From: a virus
Virus record (IMG/VR): IMGVR_UViG_3300037845_000036
Coordinates: 1-64,000 of that record
DNA: 64,000 nucleotides
Direction: 5' to 3' (one strand)
Shown here: positions 4,256-30,344 of the stretch, one piece after another
Numbering within the stretch: the stretch's first letter is position 1
Layout of the letters: each line of letters begins with the position of its first letter
Made by a program: the position numbers and the translations under genes
Notes under the pieces: model-generated
Told to the model about the DNA's origin: nothing
Databases searched by the model: none
What the model saw: only the letters and a program-made list of their open reading frames with translations

Positions 4256-4690
4256 TTAGTCTGGGTTGACGCAACCCGGATGCGGGCGGCAAATCGGCTG
4301 CCCACCCTTGTCAATGTCACTCTGCCGCTCGCCAGCGTAGAGCGCAGTAAGCACATCGTGACAGTATTGGGAGGATTCGACGCAGACCTTTAGCGAGCCG
4401 CCGTCCTTAGTGGGTACAACCAATTCCCAATCGTTATCGCCGGTTCCAGCCGCCGCCGTGGCTAATACTACAAACAGAGCGAGCGCGGGCGCTAGAAACT
4501 TTTTACCTAGCGCGGCCATGCGCCGCGACGGTGTACGCATTTGGAATTTTGGTGGCTTCGAAGAACGTGACGATCGCAAGCAAATGATTTCATTACAAAC
4601 GAAAGTATTTGGCCCTACTAGCCTTCCCTGTCCAACAGCAAGATTGCGCCCACAAGAACCACAAACGCACGGTTCTTGGTTCGCGTTCAT
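4256..4690 (-). CDS. Zn-ribbon/membrane-anchored hypothetical protein
   Basis: 144 residues. An N-terminal CxCGxC...C...C segment (CVCGSCGRNLAV...FVCNEIIC) precedes a hydrophobic stretch (FLAPALALFVVLATAAAG) and an outer domain with four Cys (KVCVESSQYCHDV...PICRPHPGCVNPD). The start overlaps the integrase stop (ATGA). An internal Met before the hydrophobic stretch (MRTPSRRMAAL) could make a purely secreted form. Function unknown. Confidence 0.5.
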   Translation of the reverse strand: MNANQEPCVCGSCGRNLAVGQGRLVGPNTFVCNEIICLRSSRSSKPPKFQMRTPSRRMAALGKKFLAPALALFVVLATAAAGTGDNDWELVVPTKDGGSLKVCVESSQYCHDVLTALYAGERQSDIDKGGQPICRPHPGCVNPD

Positions 4691-5559
4691 AGTCCCAATG
4701 TTCTAAGCGCCGGATTTTCTACCGCGCGTTGTGCTTCCACGTATCCGAGAGCTATCGAGACGGTTTTATGTCGGCTAAGAAGCATCACCTCTTCAATTTT
4801 GGCACCGTTGCGAAACATCGTCGTTATGCCGCCTCGGCGGAAACTGTGCGCCCCGATTTTAGTCGGATTGAATCCAATATGAGCCGCCCAGCGTTTGGCG
4901 ATTGTAGCAACCCTCCGCGCAGGCATGCGCGCATCGCCAGAGCGGAAGATCGGCCCGGCGGTGATGTCAGCATGCGACAGCCAGCGCTCTAAAGCCGCGA
5001 TAGGGCAATAGATTGTCGGGCTGCGCAGAATTGGGACCAACTCGCCCTTGCCGCTCTTATCAGTCTTGGAGCGCCGAACGTTAATTGTCATGCTGGCGTC
5101 GTCAATAACCAGGTCATCGCGGTTGAGCGCAACAATTTCGCTGCGGCGCATCATTGATGCGATGGCGAACAGGATTACGGCGCGATCTTGAAGGTTTTCG
5201 GGCGGAATTGCGTCAATGATCTTTTTAACGTCATCGACCATGAGTGCCGCCTTGGGAGTCTTTGCGGTGCCTTTCTGCCGGCGGATCTCCGCCCAAGTGT
5301 CCCGAATGACTGTTTCGTTGACGCGCAACGGCTTGCCTTTGATCTTGTGAACCGCTACCAGCATGGCTATGCGACCCTGCAGGCTTGAAGTAGATACCGT
5401 TGCCGAGCGGTCGGTGAGATAAGCGGCTACACTCGCGGGTTTAGCGGGGAACTGTTGTGCGGAATTGGTGACACACCAATTACACCAATCGCGCCAAAAG
5501 CTTTCGTAAGCCTGTCGAGTTGCGGGCGACCAGCGCCCTCTATCGAATAATTGCTCCAT
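4687..5559 (-). CDS. int: Tyrosine recombinase / phage integrase
   Basis: 290 residues with an N-terminal SAM-like core-binding domain (about 1-100) and a catalytic domain. Visible catalytic residues are R139 (MMRRSE), K165 (RRSKTDKSG), H238-x-x-R241 (HSFR), H264 (SRHKT) and Y273 (LGYVE), the full R-K-HxxR-H-Y set. It would catalyse site-specific integration and excision. It lies downstream of the box-flanked small genes and is coupled to the gene at 4256. No attP core could be recognised by eye. Confidence 0.93.
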   Translation of the reverse strand: MEQLFDRGRWSPATRQAYESFWRDWCNWCVTNSAQQFPAKPASVAAYLTDRSATVSTSSLQGRIAMLVAVHKIKGKPLRVNETVIRDTWAEIRRQKGTAKTPKAALMVDDVKKIIDAIPPENLQDRAVILFAIASMMRRSEIVALNRDDLVIDDASMTINVRRSKTDKSGKGELVPILRSPTIYCPIAALERWLSHADITAGPIFRSGDARMPARRVATIAKRWAAHIGFNPTKIGAHSFRRGGITTMFRNGAKIEEVMLLSRHKTVSIALGYVEAQRAVENPALRTLGL

Positions 5560-7208: not shown

Positions 7209-7544
7209 TTAACAAGCGTTAACGGTTGCCGCCGCTTTCAAGAACCATTCTTCGATTTCGTCGAAAGATTCCCGAGAGTTGTTATGCGCCGGAACCGCAA
7301 AAAAATGGACACTAGCCGCGTCTGCTAGACGGGCAACCGCTGCCCGCGCTTTATTCATGTCATAGTCTAAGGGGATAGATGCGACGAATTTCCCACCGAG
7401 TGCCTTGACGAGCGCTCCATTTGCGCAAACTCGTCCCTCTCCGTCGATGAGCCTCCCCCGGCACCAGCCATCACGACGCAGGATATCAAGTGCGTCCAAA
7501 ATAATTTTGGTTGTTTCGTCCAACCCCGTTCCGTCGAGTGGCAT
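7209..7544 (-). CDS. DUF6197-like protein, copy 1
   Basis: 111 residues starting MPLDGTGLDETTKIILDAL, with 'DGWCRGRL...GRVCANGALVKALGG' and a closing 'EIEEWFLKAA'. It resembles the DUF6197 pattern (WC.G......G..C..GA...A). The start at 7544 is favoured by a GGAGAGGAAG Shine-Dalgarno and by the paralogue at 22699-23052, which starts the same way. Box-flanked. Function unknown. Confidence 0.65.
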   Translation of the reverse strand: MPLDGTGLDETTKIILDALDILRRDGWCRGRLIDGEGRVCANGALVKALGGKFVASIPLDYDMNKARAAVARLADAASVHFFAVPAHNNSRESFDEIEEWFLKAAATVNAC

Positions 7545-7558
7545 GGTCTTCCTCTCCA

Positions 7559-7768
7559 TTAAGAAACATTAACGGCGCGAAGCGTTTCACCCCATCCACC
7601 GCGATCAGCCGCCAACCCAAGCTCTATTAGATATCGAATAGCCGCCGCTCGGGTAGGGGTTGCGGGTTGGCGTAGTCGCCACTCGTCCACGCGAGCTAGG
7701 CGCTCAGCCGAAATCCGCATATCGAAACGCTCGTCTTGCATGGACGGACTATGCCGTACTTTTTTCAT
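7559..7768 (-). CDS. Ribbon-helix-helix regulator
   Basis: 69 residues. After a short leader, QDERFDMRISAERLARVDEWR gives the beta-strand plus helix and RAAAIRYLIELGL the second helix of an Arc/MetJ/CopG-type RHH fold. Such proteins bind short palindromic operators as dimers. It is the first gene of the leftward integrase operon and is divergent from the ParB-like gene, so it is a natural autoregulator and a candidate reader of the TTAA boxes (inference). Confidence 0.7.
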   Translation of the reverse strand: MKKVRHSPSMQDERFDMRISAERLARVDEWRLRQPATPTRAAAIRYLIELGLAADRGGWGETLRAVNVS

Positions 7769-7839: not shown

Positions 7840-8856
7840 ATGTCTACGTGTGAAACCATTTTGATGACGCCGAAGCAGGCAAAGGTGCTCCGTCAAACAG
7901 CAAACTTCGAGTTGCAGCGGCCGTTGTCCGAAAACAATATCATCCGTCTACAAGCGGAAATGGAGGCGGATCGCTTCGTATCGGGAACTCCAATCTATTT
8001 TGCCGTTCTTCCCGACCAGACGCTACTCGCACTCAATGGGAATCATACGCTAGAAGCGTTGGGACGCATTCAGCGTGGGATTGAACTGACGATGATTTAT
8101 CAGAATGTCAAATCTCTAGCGGAGGCAGCGGCAATCTATTCGCGATTCGATCTGCAAAGGATGCGTTCGCAGCGGGATTCTCTGCGAGCACACGGTCAAG
8201 AAGCGATGTTGGCAGATTCCCCAACATGGACCGCTGCATTCGCTGCAGCCGTTGGTCTGATAATGAATAAATTCACAGATACCAGTGAGGGAGGATCGAA
8301 AGATCGCAAATTTGATCTAGTTGAAGTGCAGGTTCGTCGCAGTCGTGATATTCGGTTGCGCCTCATGCAAGATGCCCTTGGCGCTGCAAATCTTTATGCC
8401 GCCGCCATTGGTTCCAATCTACGCGGCAGGCATCTGTTTAAGCGGGCCGCAGTGATGGGCGTGGGTATTGAGATTATGCGTTACCAACCGTCAGCCGGAA
8501 CCGAGTTTTTTTCTACTGCTGCTGCTGACGACGGACTCAAAGCTGGCGATCCGCAGCGCGCCCTATTGCATTATCTAAGGGACCACCATTCAGCGGGCGC
8601 GTCGATGCGTAAACTTCTATCTCGCTCCGTATCTCTAGCGTGGAATGCATTTTTTGAGGGGCGGCGCCTAGGGTTCGTTCGGGCCGGAGACGGAGGGGAA
8701 TTCCGTTTGGCAGGCACCCCATGGAAAGAGGGGTTCGACCCAATTACAGAATATCTGCCGGACCTTCGCTCCGCAGAAAAAAAAGCGAAACCGACGCTAC
8801 GCAAAATTAAAACTGGCCTTGACTCCGATGGGAATGCCGTAGCCATTCATGCCTAA
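7840..8856 (+). CDS. ParB-like domain protein (second)
   Basis: 338 residues. The N-terminal 110 look like a diverged ParB/sulfiredoxin fold: 'NNIIRLQAEMEADRFVSGTPIYFAVLPDQTLLALNGNHTLEAL', where GNHTLEA replaces the classical GHRR. The rest is helical with no recognisable catalytic motif. The C-terminus overlaps the MT-A70 methylase start by 8 nt, so the two are translated together. It may guide or partner the methylase, or act as a regulator. Function inferred only from context. Confidence 0.65.
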   Translation: MSTCETILMTPKQAKVLRQTANFELQRPLSENNIIRLQAEMEADRFVSGTPIYFAVLPDQTLLALNGNHTLEALGRIQRGIELTMIYQNVKSLAEAAAIYSRFDLQRMRSQRDSLRAHGQEAMLADSPTWTAAFAAAVGLIMNKFTDTSEGGSKDRKFDLVEVQVRRSRDIRLRLMQDALGAANLYAAAIGSNLRGRHLFKRAAVMGVGIEIMRYQPSAGTEFFSTAAADDGLKAGDPQRALLHYLRDHHSAGASMRKLLSRSVSLAWNAFFEGRRLGFVRAGDGGEFRLAGTPWKEGFDPITEYLPDLRSAEKKAKPTLRKIKTGLDSDGNAVAIHA

Positions 8857-9436
8857 CTGGCCGTTTGGAGACCTGCGGCGTGGGTATTACGGTGCGGTGT
8901 ACTGCGATCCTCCATGGAGATTCAGGGTATGGGGACGGCGTTCGTCCCGAGATCCAGAACGGCACTATGGTACGCATGAAACAGACGTAATTGCGGAGCT
9001 ACCTGTTTCTGAATTGGCTGCACCCGATTGCGCACTGTTCATGTGGGTATCATGGCCAATGTTGGAGGACGCGCTTAACCTAATTGGCCGATGGGGATTT
9101 GAGTACAAAACATGTGCTTTCGCGTGGATGAAGGCTAGCAACAAGCAACTCGAATTGTTCCGCGAAGATGTTGATGCCCAGGTGGGGCTTGGATATTGGA
9201 CTAGAGCTAACAGTGAAGTTTGTTTGCTTGCGACGCGCGGCGCCCCCAAACGTCTTAACGCTGATGTGAGACAAGGCATTGTTGAGCCGCGAAGAGAACA
9301 TAGCAGGAAACCAACAGTCGTTTATGAAAGGATCGAAAGATTAGTTGCTGGACCATATGTAGAGCTTTTCGCGCGCTCAAGAAGGGCCGGATGGTCATCA
9401 TGGGGGAACGAATTAGATAAATTCGTAGCTACTTAG
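8849..9436 (+). CDS. MT-A70 family adenine methyltransferase
   Basis: 195 residues with the DPPW catalytic tetrad (D20-W23 in YCDPPWRF), 'HYGTHETDVIAELPVSELAAPDCALFMWVSWPMLEDALNLIGRWGF', 'NSEVCLLATRGAPKR' and 'REHSRKPTVVYERIERLVAGPYVELFAR'. This is the full order of motifs expected for phage N6-adenine DNA methylases of the MT-A70 class, using S-adenosylmethionine. It has no cognate endonuclease nearby, so it probably protects phage DNA or tunes regulation. Confidence 0.9.
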   Translation: MPNWPFGDLRRGYYGAVYCDPPWRFRVWGRRSSRDPERHYGTHETDVIAELPVSELAAPDCALFMWVSWPMLEDALNLIGRWGFEYKTCAFAWMKASNKQLELFREDVDAQVGLGYWTRANSEVCLLATRGAPKRLNADVRQGIVEPRREHSRKPTVVYERIERLVAGPYVELFARSRRAGWSSWGNELDKFVAT

Positions 9437-12159: not shown

Positions 12160-13083
12160 TCAACGAGGCTGTCGATACGTCAACCTCTTGCCGATGCCGC
12201 CCTTCACGATAGCGGCGGCACGCTCCGTATCGTTCAAATCGCGACGGTTCCAACGAAATGAAAATTCGTCGCAATAACGGTCAAGGTGCTCCTTGCTAAT
12301 ATGGTGAAACGAGCCAACAACCCCACGTTTCAGCAAAGCAAAGTAGCTTTCAACGGTGTTTGTGTTAACATCGTCTCTCGCATATTCGGAAGCCGAGTGC
12401 AGCACGACTTCGTGACCACCCTCAAACTCCTTGCCGATGCCGATATACGAGCGCCATTCATCGGTCACGATGCGCGACTTCCGATCCACGTTCTCGCGGA
12501 TAGCGCCTTTCAGCGTCGCGGCGTCCACATGCTCGATCTTGCGGCTGCGCACGCGGCCCGAACGCTCGACCAGCGCGACGACTGGCGTTTTCTTCGTGCC
12601 GCGCCCGCTCTTGCCCTTCGTGTTAGTGCCCGGCCGGGGTTTGCCGCCGATATAGGTTTCGTCAACCTCAACCGTCTTGCCCGACCCGCCAAGCGCCGGC
12701 TCCGGCGCACCCTCGCGCATCGCTTCCCTGATGCGGTGCCACAAAAACCAAGCGGTTTTGTAGGTAACGCCGATCGTCCGATGCAGTTGATGCGCCGACA
12801 TGCCTTTCTTGCTGCCAGCCATTAGCCGATAGGCCAGAACCCACTTGTTAAGCGGCAAATGGCTGCTTTCCATGACCGAGCCTGTCGTCACGGTGAACGA
12901 GCCTTGGCAGCTATTGCAGTGAATGAGACCCGGCCGGTGCGATGCGCCGTTGAGCCGATAGACCCGCGCGGTTTCGCCGCAGTGCGGGCAATACGGTTTC
13001 CCGTCCGGCCAGCGGAGCGACTCAAGGTGCTCCCTAGCCTTTGTTTCGTCAGTGAAAATCGGGTCTGTGAGGTTGATCGCCAT
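12160..13083 (-). CDS. IS1595-family (ISXO2-like) transposase
   Basis: 307 residues. The N-terminal zinc ribbon has C32xxC35...C56xxC59 (YCPHCGETA / IHCNSCQGSF). A helical linker (LPLNKWVLAYRLMAGSKKGMSAHQL) leads to the ISXO2 DDE domain with EVDETYIGGK (D141), IVTDEWRSY (D208) and NTVESYFALLKRG (N242/E245). The length is normal for the family and no frameshift is seen, so it may be active. It moves DNA by cut-and-paste or copy-in with 8-bp duplications, as seen here. Confidence 0.93.
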   Translation of the reverse strand: MAINLTDPIFTDETKAREHLESLRWPDGKPYCPHCGETARVYRLNGASHRPGLIHCNSCQGSFTVTTGSVMESSHLPLNKWVLAYRLMAGSKKGMSAHQLHRTIGVTYKTAWFLWHRIREAMREGAPEPALGGSGKTVEVDETYIGGKPRPGTNTKGKSGRGTKKTPVVALVERSGRVRSRKIEHVDAATLKGAIRENVDRKSRIVTDEWRSYIGIGKEFEGGHEVVLHSASEYARDDVNTNTVESYFALLKRGVVGSFHHISKEHLDRYCDEFSFRWNRRDLNDTERAAAIVKGGIGKRLTYRQPR

Positions 13084-13104
13084 GGCCTGAGCCTCTAAAA
13101 TCTG

Positions 13105-13151
13105 GCGATATCCTACCCCTTGTGGCTACCTATGTCAAAGGGATAATTCCG
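13105..13151 (-). repeat. Right terminal inverted repeat of the IS
   Basis: Reverse complement starts CGGAATTATCCCTTTGACA and then GTAGCC...GGGGTAGGATATCGCC, matching the left end. The outer flank is ATGATCTT (13152-13159). Confidence 0.85.
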
Positions 13152-13358
13152 ATGATCTTTAACGGCATAGTGGGGCGGTTGACAACCGCATGAGTACCAA
13201 GTAGAAGCCTCTAATCCGCAGCGGCAATTGCGGTAGAGCGCGACACGGAGTTTTCTGAACTTCCTCGCTCCGGTGTCGTAATCCACGACCCCTGTTCCAT
13301 AGCGCTCCGGGCTTTGCCGGCCGGAGCGAGGGAGACTTTGTGATGCCCGATTCCGCAA
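13113..13358 (-). CDS. Possible Cys-rich frame truncated or extended by IS
   Basis: A minus-strand frame (...LYRNCRCGLEASTWYSCGCQPPHYAVKDH...) that, with the IS removed, would end at a TAA inside the restored TTAA box, as other genes here do. It now reads 14 codons into the element. The start near 13358 overlaps the start of the divergent gene at 13343. Low certainty. Confidence 0.3.
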   Translation of the reverse strand: MRNRASQSLPRSGRQSPERYGTGVVDYDTGARKFRKLRVALYRNCRCGLEASTWYSCGCQPPHYAVKDHRNYPFDIGSHKG

Positions 13359-14965
13359 CGGCTTTTAGCCGGAAAATCTCAGAAGTTATCAATCCGGCCG
13401 TTCAGCGGCGCGCGCAAGCGCAGCCAACTGCCGTTGCCTCAATTGAGGCTAACCCAGTCTATCAAATCATGATGTCGGCTGAGACAACACCCGAGCAGAA
13501 ACGTGATGCCGTCGCGGCATTCCTGACCTGTGCTGAAACCAAACAGGAAAACCGCGCGAGAGTCGAAGCCTATCAGGAATTTGAAGAGTTTATGCAGGCC
13601 GAGCGCGAGCGTATGGCCAAAGCGATTATTCAATTAACCGATACCACGACCTTCAGCGAGTTACAGGCTGTTTATCGGGATCTTAACAATGCGCTGACCG
13701 ATTTTGACGAGAAAATGAAACCGCTAACCGATATTGTTGACGCACTCTATGTGCTGCGGACCAACGACAAAACGGTTGATGCATTTCGAGAGATTAAGGA
13801 CGACCGCCAGCGACAGGCCGAAATCGAGAAACAGAAGACGGAAAAGGCAGAACAATTCAGTGCGTTGCGCACTACTGTTGATCGTGTTACTGGGGATATC
13901 GCGGTTCTCGCCGAGCGCAAGGCATTCTTCGGCTGGGGAAACACCACGCAAGCTGCGCGGCAGGAAATTGCGCGGAAGGAAATCGAACTTCAAGGTGCCC
14001 AAGATCGCATCGCAGGGATTCAGCACGAACTTGCTGATCTAGAACAGCGCGGCCCTGGGTCAAGTAGCCTAGGCGAGTTTGCGGCACAGAAAGATAAATT
14101 ACGCGAATTGCTCGACATTTCCAGTGACGAACACAAGAAACGGCAGGATGATCTTGTCGCCTCGGCACTCAATTTCGTTACTACCGCCAAAGAACGAATA
14201 GGCGCAGTGCGCCAACACCTTGGCCAAATGAGCGGCCAAATTGATAATCTCTACGATGCCAACGCGCGGATGTCGGGAGTCTATGCTGTTCTGACTGATG
14301 GCATCAAGAATGCCGGCGAGGCCAATCAACAAATTCGTGCGACGCTCGCGCCCCCAACGGGAGATGAACCATTAATCGCAAAGATGGCCCGCGAAGATAA
14401 GAACCTTGCGGTGGAGGAACACATTGCGGCGCTAGGCGCGGCTGGTGGCCATACCACCGAAGCTTATGCCGATCTTACCTCCCAAACGATCCGCATCAAA
14501 ACCATGCGCGATTCAACTCAGAGCCAGATCGACAAGGCGCGTGATATGGGGACGCAAGGCGTTGCTGGCGTGGCCGATCGGCTTAGTGTGGTGCTACAGG
14601 CGGTCTCTTCGGCAGCGCTCGGAGAATCCTCAGCGATGGCTAGGGACACGCTCTCGCGGATGGTTGATAGCACCAACAAAATCGCCCAAAAGGAAACGGT
14701 ACGTGTAGCGATGGGCATTGACGAAGCCAACGCAGACGTGTTGAAGGCGATTGATGATCTCGGCGCTTATGGTGAAGTCGTCCGAACCTCTACGGATATC
14801 ACCCGGAAGGGGCTTACCGAGATGCGTGGCAACCTAGCCAAGATCAAGGAACTTGCGGAAAGTGTGCGCGGCGACGTGCATGAAGCCATCGCCACTAGCG
14901 CCGATGTCCAAGCTGGCGATGTTCAGCCATCGATCGCACCGCCTCGCAGTGCGTTTGGGGTTTGA
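13343..14965 (+). CDS. Long coiled-coil protein (TelA-like?)
   Basis: 540 residues, almost all helical, with coiled-coil stretches around 60-130, 150-190 (FREIKDDRQRQAEIEKQKTEKAEQF), 220-275 and 400-520. The segment 'SVVLQAVSSAALGESSAMARDTLSRMVDSTNKIAQKET' is reminiscent of TelA (toxic anion resistance) proteins, but the match is loose. No signal peptide or membrane segment, so cytoplasmic. First gene of a four-gene module; its stop is 2 nt before the ATG of the ClpB-like gene. ATG at 13343 follows GAGGGAGA. Confidence 0.65.
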   Translation: MPDSATAFSRKISEVINPAVQRRAQAQPTAVASIEANPVYQIMMSAETTPEQKRDAVAAFLTCAETKQENRARVEAYQEFEEFMQAERERMAKAIIQLTDTTTFSELQAVYRDLNNALTDFDEKMKPLTDIVDALYVLRTNDKTVDAFREIKDDRQRQAEIEKQKTEKAEQFSALRTTVDRVTGDIAVLAERKAFFGWGNTTQAARQEIARKEIELQGAQDRIAGIQHELADLEQRGPGSSSLGEFAAQKDKLRELLDISSDEHKKRQDDLVASALNFVTTAKERIGAVRQHLGQMSGQIDNLYDANARMSGVYAVLTDGIKNAGEANQQIRATLAPPTGDEPLIAKMAREDKNLAVEEHIAALGAAGGHTTEAYADLTSQTIRIKTMRDSTQSQIDKARDMGTQGVAGVADRLSVVLQAVSSAALGESSAMARDTLSRMVDSTNKIAQKETVRVAMGIDEANADVLKAIDDLGAYGEVVRTSTDITRKGLTEMRGNLAKIKELAESVRGDVHEAIATSADVQAGDVQPSIAPPRSAFGV

Positions 14966-14967
14966 AT

Positions 14968-16980
14968 ATGAATCACCTAATCCGAGGATCAGAATACCTT
15001 GATAGCCACGAAGGCTTTGAGTTAGTTGGACGAAACGCTGAACTTCAGCGCTTAGTCTCGGTTCTAATGCGGAATCGGGCTAGCTCAGTCATTCTCGTCG
15101 GACCCGGCGGCGTTGGTTGTACTGCTCTCTGTCTTGGCGTTCAAGCGGCCAAGATACGCCCTGATGCTCCGTTCGATCTTGTTAGCAAGCGACTGTTTTG
15201 GCTCGATACGAATAGTCTCTTTTCGTCCGGTGATAACGGCGCAACCAATAACTCCTTTCGCCGAATCGTTCAGAGGATTGAGCGTTCGCGCGAAGGCGTC
15301 CTAGTAATAGAAGATGCTCGCGACTTTATCGAAGGGTGCCGAAACAACAACGCGAGCCATTTCATCAATGGTCTGATTCTCGCAGTGCAAAACGGACGTA
15401 TGCAACTGATTTTCGAAACGAAAGATGAGGATCTTGATCTTGTGGTGCGATGTCATTCCGACGTGAATGAATTATTTACAATCCTTCCAATTGAGGAACC
15501 AACTGGCGATGCACTGCTTAAGATCGTGACGTCTGCTGCTCGTAGGCTGACTCATCATCATGGAATACGCATCGAAGATGACGCCATAACAACAGCGATT
15601 GAATTGACTAACAAATATCAGTCGCGGGACAGTGGCCTCTCTCGTGCCCAGCCGGAACGTAGTGTAACGTTGCTCGATCGCACGCTCGCTACCTACCGCC
15701 TAGACGTTCACCAACATCCGCCAGGTATCCCAAACTGGGGTGAGCAGCAACAACGTCTGCGCGCGCTACACGACGAGCAACGCGCTGGCGAGATGACGAT
15801 ATCTTCGCTAGAAGAACAGATAGATCACGTCAAGTCCGCTCAGCCAGACAACACACGTATGGCTGTACTAGGACAATTTGAGCCACCCGAGATCACAGAC
15901 CTGCGCAGCAAAATACGGCTTATTCAGGGCGAGGTAGACGCAAAGCATCACCAGTTCGCTGAAATCACTGCTTACATAAACAGTTCTCTGAGTGTGGCTC
16001 GCGCTCTCGTTCTTTGTGAATTTGCCGATATTTCGGGCATCCCAGCGACCAAATTGAATCAAGACGATCGGGAGAAGTTGCGTGGGATGGAAGCCGCTAT
16101 GTCACGGCGTGTCTTTGGTCAGGAAGACGCTATTCGACGCCTGGCCAACGGCGTAAGGATTGCCCGAGTGGGCCGGCGCAATAATGCTAGACCAACGTCC
16201 TACTTGTTTCTCGGGCCTTCCGGGGTTGGCAAGACCGAAATGGCGAAGGTACTCGCGGGAATTTTGCTCGACGATGAAAGCGCTTTGAGCCGCTTTGATA
16301 TGTCCGAGTACATGGAAAAGCACGCTGTCGCTAAGATGATCGGGGCGCCCCCTGGTTATGAGGGATTCGATGCTGGCGGAATCTTGACTAATCTAATGCG
16401 CCGGAATGGCAACCGCGTGCTGCTATTTGATGAAATCGAAAAAGCGCACCCGGACATATTCAATATCATGCTGCAGGTGCTAGAGGACGGCCGCCTGACC
16501 GACAATATCGGACGCACGGTTTCGTTTTCCGATGCAGTTATCATTATGACTACCAATATCGGGCAGCCGCACTTTCTCGATGAAACGCTTTCAGTTGAAG
16601 AAGCTGAAGCCCGCGCAACAGACGATCTTAACGCGACCTATCGTTCTGAATTTCTTAACCGTTTTGCTGGACGACAAAATATTGTTTGCTTCAAACGTCT
16701 TGGCATCGACTCCATGGAAAAGATTGTACGGCGAGAAATCGCTGGCATCAATACGGTCTATAGTGAGAAAGGAGTTGCAGTTCAACTTGACGACGCATCA
16801 ATAACGACTTTTTGTGAAGATCAATATGATCCGCGTATTGGGGCGCGTGGGTTGCCGGGTTTTATCGCTGCGAATCTAGAACCCATTATTGTCAATGCAA
16901 TCCTTGCGAACGAAACGATCCATGATACCGCGCGTGTTACTTATGACCGTGATCGCCATCATTTCCGTGTGGAGTTTTAG
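14968..16980 (+). CDS. ClpA/ClpB-like AAA+ protein with degenerate first ATPase
   Basis: 670 residues. NBD1 has GPGGVGCT (45-52), with Cys in place of the Walker A Lys, and VLVIEDARD in place of the usual hhhhDE, so it probably cannot hydrolyse ATP. NBD2 is intact: FLGPSGVGKTEMAK (from about 414), FDMSEYMEKHAVAKMIGAPPGYEG, VLLFDEIEKAHPDIFNIMLQVLEDGRLTD (about 483) and the EFLNRF arginine finger, ending with a ClpB-type C-domain (DPRIGARGLPGFIAANLE). The Clp N-domain is missing and the middle region is a short coiled coil (about 265-340). A disaggregase or unfoldase motor in a membrane-linked module. ATG 14968 follows GGGG; a TTG two codons earlier is less likely. Confidence 0.88.
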   Translation: MNHLIRGSEYLDSHEGFELVGRNAELQRLVSVLMRNRASSVILVGPGGVGCTALCLGVQAAKIRPDAPFDLVSKRLFWLDTNSLFSSGDNGATNNSFRRIVQRIERSREGVLVIEDARDFIEGCRNNNASHFINGLILAVQNGRMQLIFETKDEDLDLVVRCHSDVNELFTILPIEEPTGDALLKIVTSAARRLTHHHGIRIEDDAITTAIELTNKYQSRDSGLSRAQPERSVTLLDRTLATYRLDVHQHPPGIPNWGEQQQRLRALHDEQRAGEMTISSLEEQIDHVKSAQPDNTRMAVLGQFEPPEITDLRSKIRLIQGEVDAKHHQFAEITAYINSSLSVARALVLCEFADISGIPATKLNQDDREKLRGMEAAMSRRVFGQEDAIRRLANGVRIARVGRRNNARPTSYLFLGPSGVGKTEMAKVLAGILLDDESALSRFDMSEYMEKHAVAKMIGAPPGYEGFDAGGILTNLMRRNGNRVLLFDEIEKAHPDIFNIMLQVLEDGRLTDNIGRTVSFSDAVIIMTTNIGQPHFLDETLSVEEAEARATDDLNATYRSEFLNRFAGRQNIVCFKRLGIDSMEKIVRREIAGINTVYSEKGVAVQLDDASITTFCEDQYDPRIGARGLPGFIAANLEPIIVNAILANETIHDTARVTYDRDRHHFRVEF

Positions 16981-16983
16981 CCC

Positions 16984-17712
16984 ATGGCGAATCTCGCGGA
17001 CGAGATTGCTCAATTTCAAGCGCGCATGGCTGCGGAGAAAGCGCAGCGTCAGAAAGATGCGCGCTACTCTCGCACCGGGCGCATGCGTGCTGATGTTTCT
17101 AGCGGGGGTACTTTCTTAGCGCAGCTATTCGTAGCGGCTGGATGGCTTTGGCAAAGAGTTGTCTCTCCGCTTCTCCACCTATTTTGGAGATGGGGTGTTT
17201 TTCACGTTAAGCAGTACCGGCGGCTCTGGTCATTAGTCGTTTACCGTCGCACGACCGATGGCGAGTTACTGTTTTCAAAGACCCGCGCTGGCCTTTTCGC
17301 TGGTGGCAGCATTCTATTTTTCTGGTTCATTGCGATTCCCCTCATTGATGGCGTGTGGGATGCTGGCATCTACTTGTTGACCGCAGAGCGGAATGAGCAT
17401 GTCTATTTGTTAGGTTCACAGGAGATTGACTCATGGACCGGAGCACATGTTATTGAGGGGTGTTCAAAGCTTCCGTGTTCGGATCGTGATGCCATCTATT
17501 TTCGCACGGCTGGCGGGTTATTCAATAATCTCTGGAGCTTGATGCACGGTCGGGGGCTTTTCTATCCCGAATATGTCGGTGCAGCGGTACCATATGCCAC
17601 AAGCAAATGCATTGTTACGTCCTATGGAGTTCGTATCCGGCTGCCATTTCGCATCGTCAACACCTATTCATACCTTTTGGCCGTCACATGCTCCCCGCTC
17701 AGCAAAGATTGA
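16984..17712 (+). CDS. Membrane protein of the Clp module
   Basis: 242 residues. A basic helical N-terminus (LADEIAQFQARMAAEKAQRQKDAR) is followed by a hydrophobic segment near 45-75 (FLAQLFVAAGWLWQRVVSPLLHLFWRW), a clear membrane helix near 103-125 (GLFAGGSILFFWFIAIPLIDGVW) and an outer domain with Cys pairs (VIEGCSKLPCSDRD, SKCIVTSYG...VTCSPL). It begins 3 nt after the ClpB-like stop. Function unknown; it probably anchors the module in the membrane. Confidence 0.65.
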   Translation: MANLADEIAQFQARMAAEKAQRQKDARYSRTGRMRADVSSGGTFLAQLFVAAGWLWQRVVSPLLHLFWRWGVFHVKQYRRLWSLVVYRRTTDGELLFSKTRAGLFAGGSILFFWFIAIPLIDGVWDAGIYLLTAERNEHVYLLGSQEIDSWTGAHVIEGCSKLPCSDRDAIYFRTAGGLFNNLWSLMHGRGLFYPEYVGAAVPYATSKCIVTSYGVRIRLPFRIVNTYSYLLAVTCSPLSKD

Positions 17713-17996
17713 CTCGTGCTCAGCGGGCCGCCGATACTGTAACCGAGTTCTGCGGTTCCTGGACCTTTATCGCGGTCGGGTCAGTACTTACGACCGGATG
17801 GATTGCGTTGAACTCAATTCTTGTGCTGTTCGGAGAATTCGATCCGTACCCTTATATCTTATTCAATCTTGTGCTGACAGTTGTAAGCACATTTCAGGGA
17901 CCGCTGATTATGATGTCGCAGAACCGCCAATTAGAGCGCGACCGCGAAGCTGTGGCGGGATTGCACGCAAAGCTTGATGCGCTTCTTGGCCGTTAA
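17688..17996 (+). CDS. DUF1003 family membrane protein
   Basis: 102 residues from the ATG at 17688, which overlaps the upstream gene by 25 nt. LTRAQRAADTVTEFCGSWTFI, then helix VGSVLTTGWIALNSILVLFGEFDPYPYILFNLVLTVVSTFQGPLIMMSQNRQLERDRE. The DPYP, NL.L and MSQNR motifs are diagnostic of DUF1003. Two membrane helices, cytoplasmic ends. The role of the family is not known. The stop codon lies in a TTAA box. Confidence 0.8.
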   Translation: MLPAQQRLTRAQRAADTVTEFCGSWTFIAVGSVLTTGWIALNSILVLFGEFDPYPYILFNLVLTVVSTFQGPLIMMSQNRQLERDREAVAGLHAKLDALLGR

Positions 17997-22698: not shown

Positions 22699-23052
22699 TT
22701 AAGGGCTGTTAACGGCAGCCATAGATGCTGCCCTCAGAAACCAATCTTCGATTTCGGTAAATGTCATGCGTGAATTATTGAAATCCGGGACGCCCTGACT
22801 ACGCTTGCCGATGGGGCAGTCACAAGCTTCCGCCAACCGATCACGCGCCAATATAAATTTATCAACGGGCCATCCATCGGGGCGAATCCTTGGATCGGTT
22901 CCCGTAACTGCTTTAACCAACGCGCCATTGGCGCACACCCGTCCCTCGCCGTCTGATAATTTGCCGCGACACCAACCTTCACGGCGCAGAATGTCGAGAG
23001 CATCCAAAATGATTTGAGTTGTTTCGTCTAAATTCGTTCCGTCGAGAGGCAT
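22699..23052 (-). CDS. DUF6197-like protein, copy 2
   Basis: 117 residues: MPLDGTNLDETTQIILDALD, then ILRREGWCRGKLSDGEGRVCANGALVKAVTG and a closing EIEDWFLRAA. It is about 60% identical to the 7209-7544 protein through the first 55 residues and again at the end, with a divergent centre. Box-bounded on both sides, like its paralogue. Confidence 0.65.
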   Translation of the reverse strand: MPLDGTNLDETTQIILDALDILRREGWCRGKLSDGEGRVCANGALVKAVTGTDPRIRPDGWPVDKFILARDRLAEACDCPIGKRSQGVPDFNNSRMTFTEIEDWFLRAASMAAVNSP

Positions 23053-30017: not shown

Positions 30018-30344
30018 ATGCCTTTTGATGGAACAGAGACTCCGGCGTTGCGGCGCGCTCGTTTGATTGAAGTGCTCCGTTCGCCGATGCCAAACACTTG
30101 GAAATGGGATTTCGGCGTGACGGAGGAAGAACATGAATGCGGCACCGCTGGGTGCGCGTTGGGCCTCGCCCGGCAGTTGTGGCCAGAGATGAATGATTTT
30201 CACGCGATAAGAGATCGCGAGGCCGCATTCTTTGGGATAACAAAAGACCAAGCCTTCAGTGTCTTTTTCGGTCCATATCGCGGATGTTTTGCAAGCGTAA
30301 CACCTGAGATGGTGGCCGATCGGCTTGAAGCAATTGACCGTTAA
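30018..30344 (+). CDS. Hypothetical protein of the MPFD group
   Basis: 108 residues: MPFDGTETPALRRARLIEVLRSPMPNTWKWDFGVTEEEHECGTAGCALGLARQLW...AFFGI...VTPEMVADRLEAI. Paralogue-like to 23645-23965, and its first residues match the DUF6197-like pair (MP[LF]DGT). Box-bounded. Function unknown. Confidence 0.6.
   Translation: MPFDGTETPALRRARLIEVLRSPMPNTWKWDFGVTEEEHECGTAGCALGLARQLWPEMNDFHAIRDREAAFFGITKDQAFSVFFGPYRGCFASVTPEMVADRLEAIDR

Follow-up and report, generated by a model that had tools for sequence, protein, structure and literature searches.

A phage-borne gene module that pairs a ClpB-like motor carrying a degenerate first ATPase domain with a coiled-coil protein and a membrane protein

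The locus and the phage that carries it

The window, that is, the whole 64,000-nucleotide stretch of viral DNA analysed here, belongs to a virus record of 97,058 bases and contains four consecutive open reading frames (ORFs) on the plus strand, which encode a coiled-coil protein (P1), a ClpB-like AAA+ protein (P2), a membrane protein (P3) and a DUF1003 protein (Table 1). A preliminary description, made from the sequence, had called these genes tightly spaced, and they are: the gap is 2 nt between P1 and P2 and 3 nt between P2 and P3, and P3 and the DUF1003 ORF share 25 nt. The fourth ORF had also been named correctly, as it scored 81.3 bits with the Pfam model against a gathering score of 27.4.

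Table 1. Features of the module in the window
Feature	Position	Strand	Description
P1	13343..14965	+	540 aa; all-helical coiled-coil protein; core module member
P1 C-terminal tail, residues 508-540	14864..14962	+	low-confidence linker; PF-like end AFGV
P2	14968..16980	+	670 aa; double-ring AAA+ protein, ClpB-like; Clp N-domain absent
P2 NBD1 large domain, residues 19-180	15022..15507	+	catalytically degenerate; Cys51 (codon 15118-15120) at the Walker A Lys position, E115-D116 in Walker B
P2 NBD2 large domain, residues 346-560	16003..16647	+	intact; K422 codon 16231-16233; D488, E489, pore Tyr464
P2 Arg565 and sensor-2 Arg627	downstream of NBD2 large domain		
P3	16984..17712	+	242 aa; membrane protein with basic N-terminal part, one TM-like segment and four-Cys beta domain
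P3 TM-like segment, window residues 103-121	17290..17346	+	Kyte-Doolittle 19-residue mean 2.09
P3 C-terminal beta domain, residues 135-238	17386..17697	+	Cys160, 165, 209, 236; weakly OB-fold-like; putatively periplasmic
DUF1003 membrane protein	17688..17996	+	102 aa; overlaps P3 end; Pfam DUF1003, E = 6.7e-23; local passenger

The virus record carries genes for an integrase, a ParB-like protein, an endolysin, a terminase, a portal protein, a major head protein, a primase and a RecE-like exonuclease, and, judged by this gene content, its source is a temperate tailed phage or a phage-plasmid. In the window, the ParB-like protein (931-1902) and a tyrosine integrase (4687-5559) are found together, possibly reflecting a phage-plasmid or integrating lifestyle. 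An IS1595-like transposase ORF (12160-13083) lies directly upstream of the module. The sole candidate terminal repeat found for this element is a right end, GGGGTAGGATATCGCCAG, on the reverse strand at 13102-13119, and no matching left end was present in the window (the best match elsewhere had 4 mismatches). A compound transposon around the module was rejected, as the window holds no second copy of the candidate end. Just upstream of P1, an imperfect inverted repeat (13260-13334; two arms of 14 nt with 93% complementarity, separated by 47 nt) may represent an operator or a structure in the mRNA.

Several other features of the window were recorded. Three small proteins (7209-7559, 22699-23052 and 30018-30344) have like starts of the MPLDGT...LDALDILRR..W...CANGAL type, on which basis they would form a small family of paralogues dispersed over the phage genome. 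Furthermore, an adenine methyltransferase of the MT-A70 family (Pfam, 1.2e-26) is encoded at 8849-9436, and the reading frame at positions 2-394 consists of ASG-x-x-GAAT repeats and encodes a repetitive, low-complexity protein that is truncated at the window edge.

Recurrence of P1, P2 and P3 in phages and bacteria

When viral contigs were searched with P2, ~16 close relatives (37-67% identical) were obtained, after which identity dropped to that of ordinary ClpB, at ~33%. P1 lay upstream of P2 in 15 large-phage loci, the window included, while two more loci ended at a contig edge, and all phage loci examined had a co-directional P3 downstream. As a single-protein query, P1 gave no matches in viral contigs and an alignment of P1 was needed. 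With this alignment, 28 loci, nearly all proteobacterial, were retrieved from bacterial genomes. P2 followed P1 in 28/28 of them, and P3 came next in 23 as detected by profile and in one more by a wider profile; the loci without P3 were either cut by a contig end or came from Gilliamella. The preliminary description had staked its module on the joint recurrence of the genes elsewhere, and this was found, the P1-P2-P3 order standing in ~15 phage loci and in most of the 28 bacterial loci, although these counts are not an unbiased rate since P1 or P2 had served to select the seeds.

The four-gene composition proposed in that description, however, stood only in part. P1, P2 and P3 keep the same order in other phages and bacteria, but the other module loci searched yielded no relative of the DUF1003 protein; DUF1003 was therefore rejected as a core member, and the conserved core consists of three genes, not four. 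No further gene beyond these three was shared among the phage and bacterial loci. Distances of P1, P2 and P3 were correlated (Mantel r 0.80, 0.64 and 0.59, with 0 of 2000 permutations as high), as expected if the three travel together, and the correlations partly reflect shared descent. The earlier remark that no described system has this gene set agrees with our searches: no model in Pfam, NCBIfam, PADLOC or PHROG names the set, and it was not found in the open-licence papers searched. Given the joint recurrence in large phages and scattered proteobacteria, P1-P2-P3 appear to form a single machine of the cell membrane that can be transferred as a unit.

The module is rare. Carriers beyond the seed amounted to 1 of 273 genomes in the Halopseudomonas class, 0 of 288 in the Plastoroseomonas class, and 2/147 and 1/149 in the two families tested, and no P1 was found on plasmids. 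In Gilliamella, 14 of 35 genomes were carriers, and these have a two-gene P1-P2 form without detectable P3 (L117, L161-L165) at one constant site downstream of fxsA-groESL. All carriers examined have the pair between groL and a gene next to rlmN, and in most of the non-carriers examined these two flanks adjoin. A genome of the Halopseudomonas family (L166, G597) holds a P1-P2 pair with 74-77% identity to that of Gilliamella, and none of the P3 sequences used as queries had a match in it; this likeness is probably due to transfer between gut-type bacteria. In Halopseudomonas laoshanensis, a protein with a VasX N-terminal domain, of the type VI effector type, is encoded upstream of the module (L109:2815-6351), and the other loci scanned did not share it.

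Copies from phages and from bacteria were interspersed in the P2 tree, with 5 phage-bacterium changes, at least 3 of which are forced by well-supported (starred) branches. The frequency of the module in large phages would be explained if it were a chaperone for virion assembly or takeover specific to such phages, and in a relative of the window phage (L017, head protein 89% identical) P2-P3 are indeed ~6 kb from the head gene on the same strand. However, the same operon occurs in bacterial chromosomes without surrounding phage genes, and in the window phage itself the module is far from the head (capsid) gene and on the opposite strand, so that we consider a virion chaperone quite unlikely.

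Features of the three proteins

Pfam domains detected in P2 were AAA_2, AAA_lid_9 and ClpB_D2-small. The missing Clp N-domain reported previously was confirmed, as no match to it was obtained in Pfam and the alignment of Thermus ClpB (1qvr) to P2 begins at ClpB residue 172. The motifs had been read correctly as well: in NBD1, Walker A is GPGGVGCT, with Cys51 in place of Lys, and Walker B is VIED, so that the Walker A Lys and the Walker B Glu are both missing, whereas the NBD2 motifs (GPSGVGKT and LLFDE) are intact. Among homologues, Lys was found at the NBD1 Walker A position in 0/40 (C in 22, V in 9, A in 4, and R, T, S, I and L in 1 each), while the Gly residues of the loop were kept and Walker B was mostly [E/D]D instead of DE. 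On the other hand, Lys422, Asp488, Glu489, Arg565 and Arg627 of NBD2 were present in 41/41 and the pore Tyr in 40/41. From this alignment, the dead NBD1 is best taken as a fixed trait of the family, and its explanation by a single mutation, which the preliminary description had held open against itself, is rejected.

Mean pairwise identity was 0.52 for the NBD1 large domain, 0.63 for NBD2 and 0.31 for the middle coiled coil. The NBD1 large domain is thus conserved though dead, implying that it is retained for a purpose besides hydrolysis. The KYRG-type pore loop, which we take to be the usual one of ClpB NBD1, was not recognisable in the P2 alignment.

These features bear on two conventional roles. 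P2 matched phrog_4871, labelled ATP-dependent protease, at 8.6e-169 and has ClpA-like and ClpC-like similarity, as would be expected of a Clp protease component that feeds ClpP; however, the ClpP-type I/L-G-F/L tripeptide is absent from the D2 loop in 40/41 homologues, P2 included, and present in 1/41, which makes such a component very improbable. Alternatively, P2 may be a general ClpK/ClpG-like disaggregase, with P1 and P3 as accessories, by which the cell, and with it the phage, is shielded from heat or envelope stress. Its membership of the Hsp100 sequence family and the position of the Gilliamella pair next to groESL are in line with this idea, and the authors of the Atu_ph07 genome, who named the P2 homologue gp492 ClpB, suggested that it has a role in surviving infection stress (PMC6102473). 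Nevertheless, P2 scored far under the cut-offs for ClpB (TIGR03346; 398.6 bits, equivalog cut-off 1232.1) and for ClpK/ClpG (NF033606 and NF033607; 302.4 and 303.6 bits, cut-off 1900), as it also did for ClpV (TIGR03345; 316.8 bits, cut-off 884.95). In addition, the lack of the N-domain, the dead NBD1 without the usual pore loop and the constant presence of P1, unneeded by a general disaggregase, speak against it, and we regard the disaggregase as unlikely.

P1 was modelled by AlphaFold2 as all helix (mean pLDDT 73.5), with a C-terminal third of low confidence; residues 508-535 had pLDDT under 50, and the C-terminal tail is accordingly predicted by the model to be disordered. Neither P1 nor P3 had a convincing match to a named family in Pfam, NCBIfam or PHROG. 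Foldseek of P1 against the PDB returned coiled coils only, none at E <= 0.001, and the one match of P1 to a solved structure by sequence, a 53-residue stretch of Rnf subunit G (E 5e-4), was rejected as a chance match of low-complexity helix. The loose likeness to TelA seen in the preliminary description was not sustained. A Ter/TelA-type stress system with P1 as the TelA homologue is suggested by the general helical coiled-coil resemblance and by a survey of 224 jumbo phages, which treats Clp proteins and TelA separately and reports TelA in some of these phages (PMC7824862); yet none of the 41 P1 proteins had a Pfam TelA (PF05816) match at the levels listed, and hhalign of P1 against a TelA alignment gave a probability of 0.3%. 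TelA homology of P1 was therefore rejected, and a system of this type is hardly credible here.

A PF-like C-terminal end of P1 was found in 37/41 homologues (SPF, NPF or DPF in relatives, AFGV in the window). Gilliamella copies keep an SPFKL end although they have no detectable P3 (three genomes tested), so that the motif would address P2 rather than P3.

The description of P3 as a Cys-rich membrane protein proved apt. The AlphaFold2 model (mean pLDDT 93.1) has long N-terminal helices, one hydrophobic segment at ~103-121 and a beta domain, with basic residues before the hydrophobic segment and four Cys after it. In relatives, the Cys residues were either all gone (L099, L100 and L102) or reduced to the last two (L013 and L007). 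Such a loss as a set or as a pair is expected for two disulphides, putatively 160-165 and 209-236, and suggests that the four-Cys domain is periplasmic. The top Foldseek matches of P3 in the PDB were OB folds, albeit weak (best E 0.056), and the modelled beta domain is possibly OB-like; no convincing solved-structure relative was found by sequence, and the best BFVD match was the Atu_ph07 homologue (2.2e-21).

A membrane protein with a putative periplasm-facing domain, carried by a temperate phage (integrase) as well as by large phages and patchily distributed in bacteria, could also belong to a superinfection-exclusion or anti-phage module, in which a membrane complex stops the entry of competitor phage components or dismantles them. 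However, PADLOC-DB 2.0.0 gave no specific match to the set: P2 had partial, generic AAA+ matches to PDC-M37B and DolB, and P1 had coiled-coil matches to LmuB. The bacterial neighbourhoods scanned contained mostly housekeeping genes and did not resemble a defence island, with which a defence role is still compatible. We judge exclusion or defence to be an improbable primary account of the module.

A possible membrane-anchored threading machine and its known parallels

We give roughly even chances to the reading that P1-P2-P3 are an Hsp100 threading machine, anchored in the membrane and spread by horizontal transfer, in which P1 is a dedicated substrate or adaptor and which works like Pex1/Pex6. 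P2 would assemble into a double-ring hexamer in which NBD1 serves as a structural or docking ring without ATP hydrolysis and NBD2 threads protein through the pore, the machine acting on envelope proteins. The inner-membrane anchor of the complex would be P3, its N-terminal part cytoplasmic and its four-Cys domain periplasmic. P1, as the dedicated partner, would replace the usual N-domain or adaptor system, being either a polymer or substrate remodelled by P2 or an adaptor feeding it, and would use its flexible tail, together with the C-terminal PF peptide, for docking. Note that P3 is missing from the Gilliamella genomes, so that membrane anchoring would not be universal.

As to function, the occurrence of the module in a temperate phage and in large phages speaks for envelope protection or exclusion, and the groESL adjacency in one genus for proteostasis. 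A bolder version is that of an envelope machine, in which the Hsp100 with its obligatorily dead ring, coupled by the C-terminal peptide of P1 to a transmembrane P3 with a disulphide-bonded periplasmic domain, would remodel an inner-membrane or P1-based assembly and would be exchanged between large phages and proteobacteria as envelope protection against phage entry or damage, thereby forming a new bacterial class; we advance this only tentatively and think it rather doubtful. If the threading machine is real, gene order links an Hsp100 motor to two fixed partners that have no family otherwise, of which one is membranous, and bacteria offer a case in which to test why a dead ring is retained in double-ring motors, as so far known from Pex1/Pex6. 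The same question concerns large-phage biology and bacterial genetics, and could be addressed in cultured Halopseudomonas or Gilliamella carriers.

Among known systems, ClpB/Hsp104 (TIGR03346) resembles P2 in its two AAA+ domains, AAA_lid_9, ClpB_D2-small, middle coiled coil, NBD2 residues and pore Tyr, but P2 differs in having no N-domain, an NBD1 that is dead in all homologues, and P1 and P3 as fixed partners. ClpV, which acts with TssB/TssC in type VI secretion, is an Hsp100 motor for one dedicated protein assembly and has an N-domain and an active NBD1. P2 may be likened to it by analogy, as a motor for one dedicated assembly, and differs from it in the N-domain and NBD1. The ClpA-like ATPases of the jumbo phages 121Q, GAP32, Phosso and MIJ3 are, like P2, phage-encoded Clp ATPases, but their genes have other neighbours (DnaJ, peptide deformylase and tail genes). 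In Sinorhizobium phage Phosso (L083) and Pseudomonas phage MIJ3 (L087), the ClpA-like gene adjoins a DnaJ-like gene, a different chaperone pair.

Atu_ph07 was the only match when the phage collection was searched with P1 and P3. Its gp492-gp493 and P3 homologue (353397-354110) are members of the family, 51% (P2), 39% (P1) and 36% (P3) identical to the window proteins, and the locus differs in having three extra genes between P2 and P3. gp493 and the P3 homologue were published as hypothetical proteins (PMC6102473).

Pex1/Pex6 is a eukaryotic heterohexamer from another AAA+ branch, and the partner proteins are likened without a claim of kinship. In this complex, translocation is driven by D2, the D1 ring having no catalytic activity (PMC10518020), and Pex15 is a tail-anchored recruiter that brings Pex1/Pex6 to the membrane (PMC5762779). 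By analogy only, the two systems are alike in placing a dead D1 over an active D2, and they would also be alike in a membrane-anchored recruiter, which is Pex15 there and is proposed to be P3 here.
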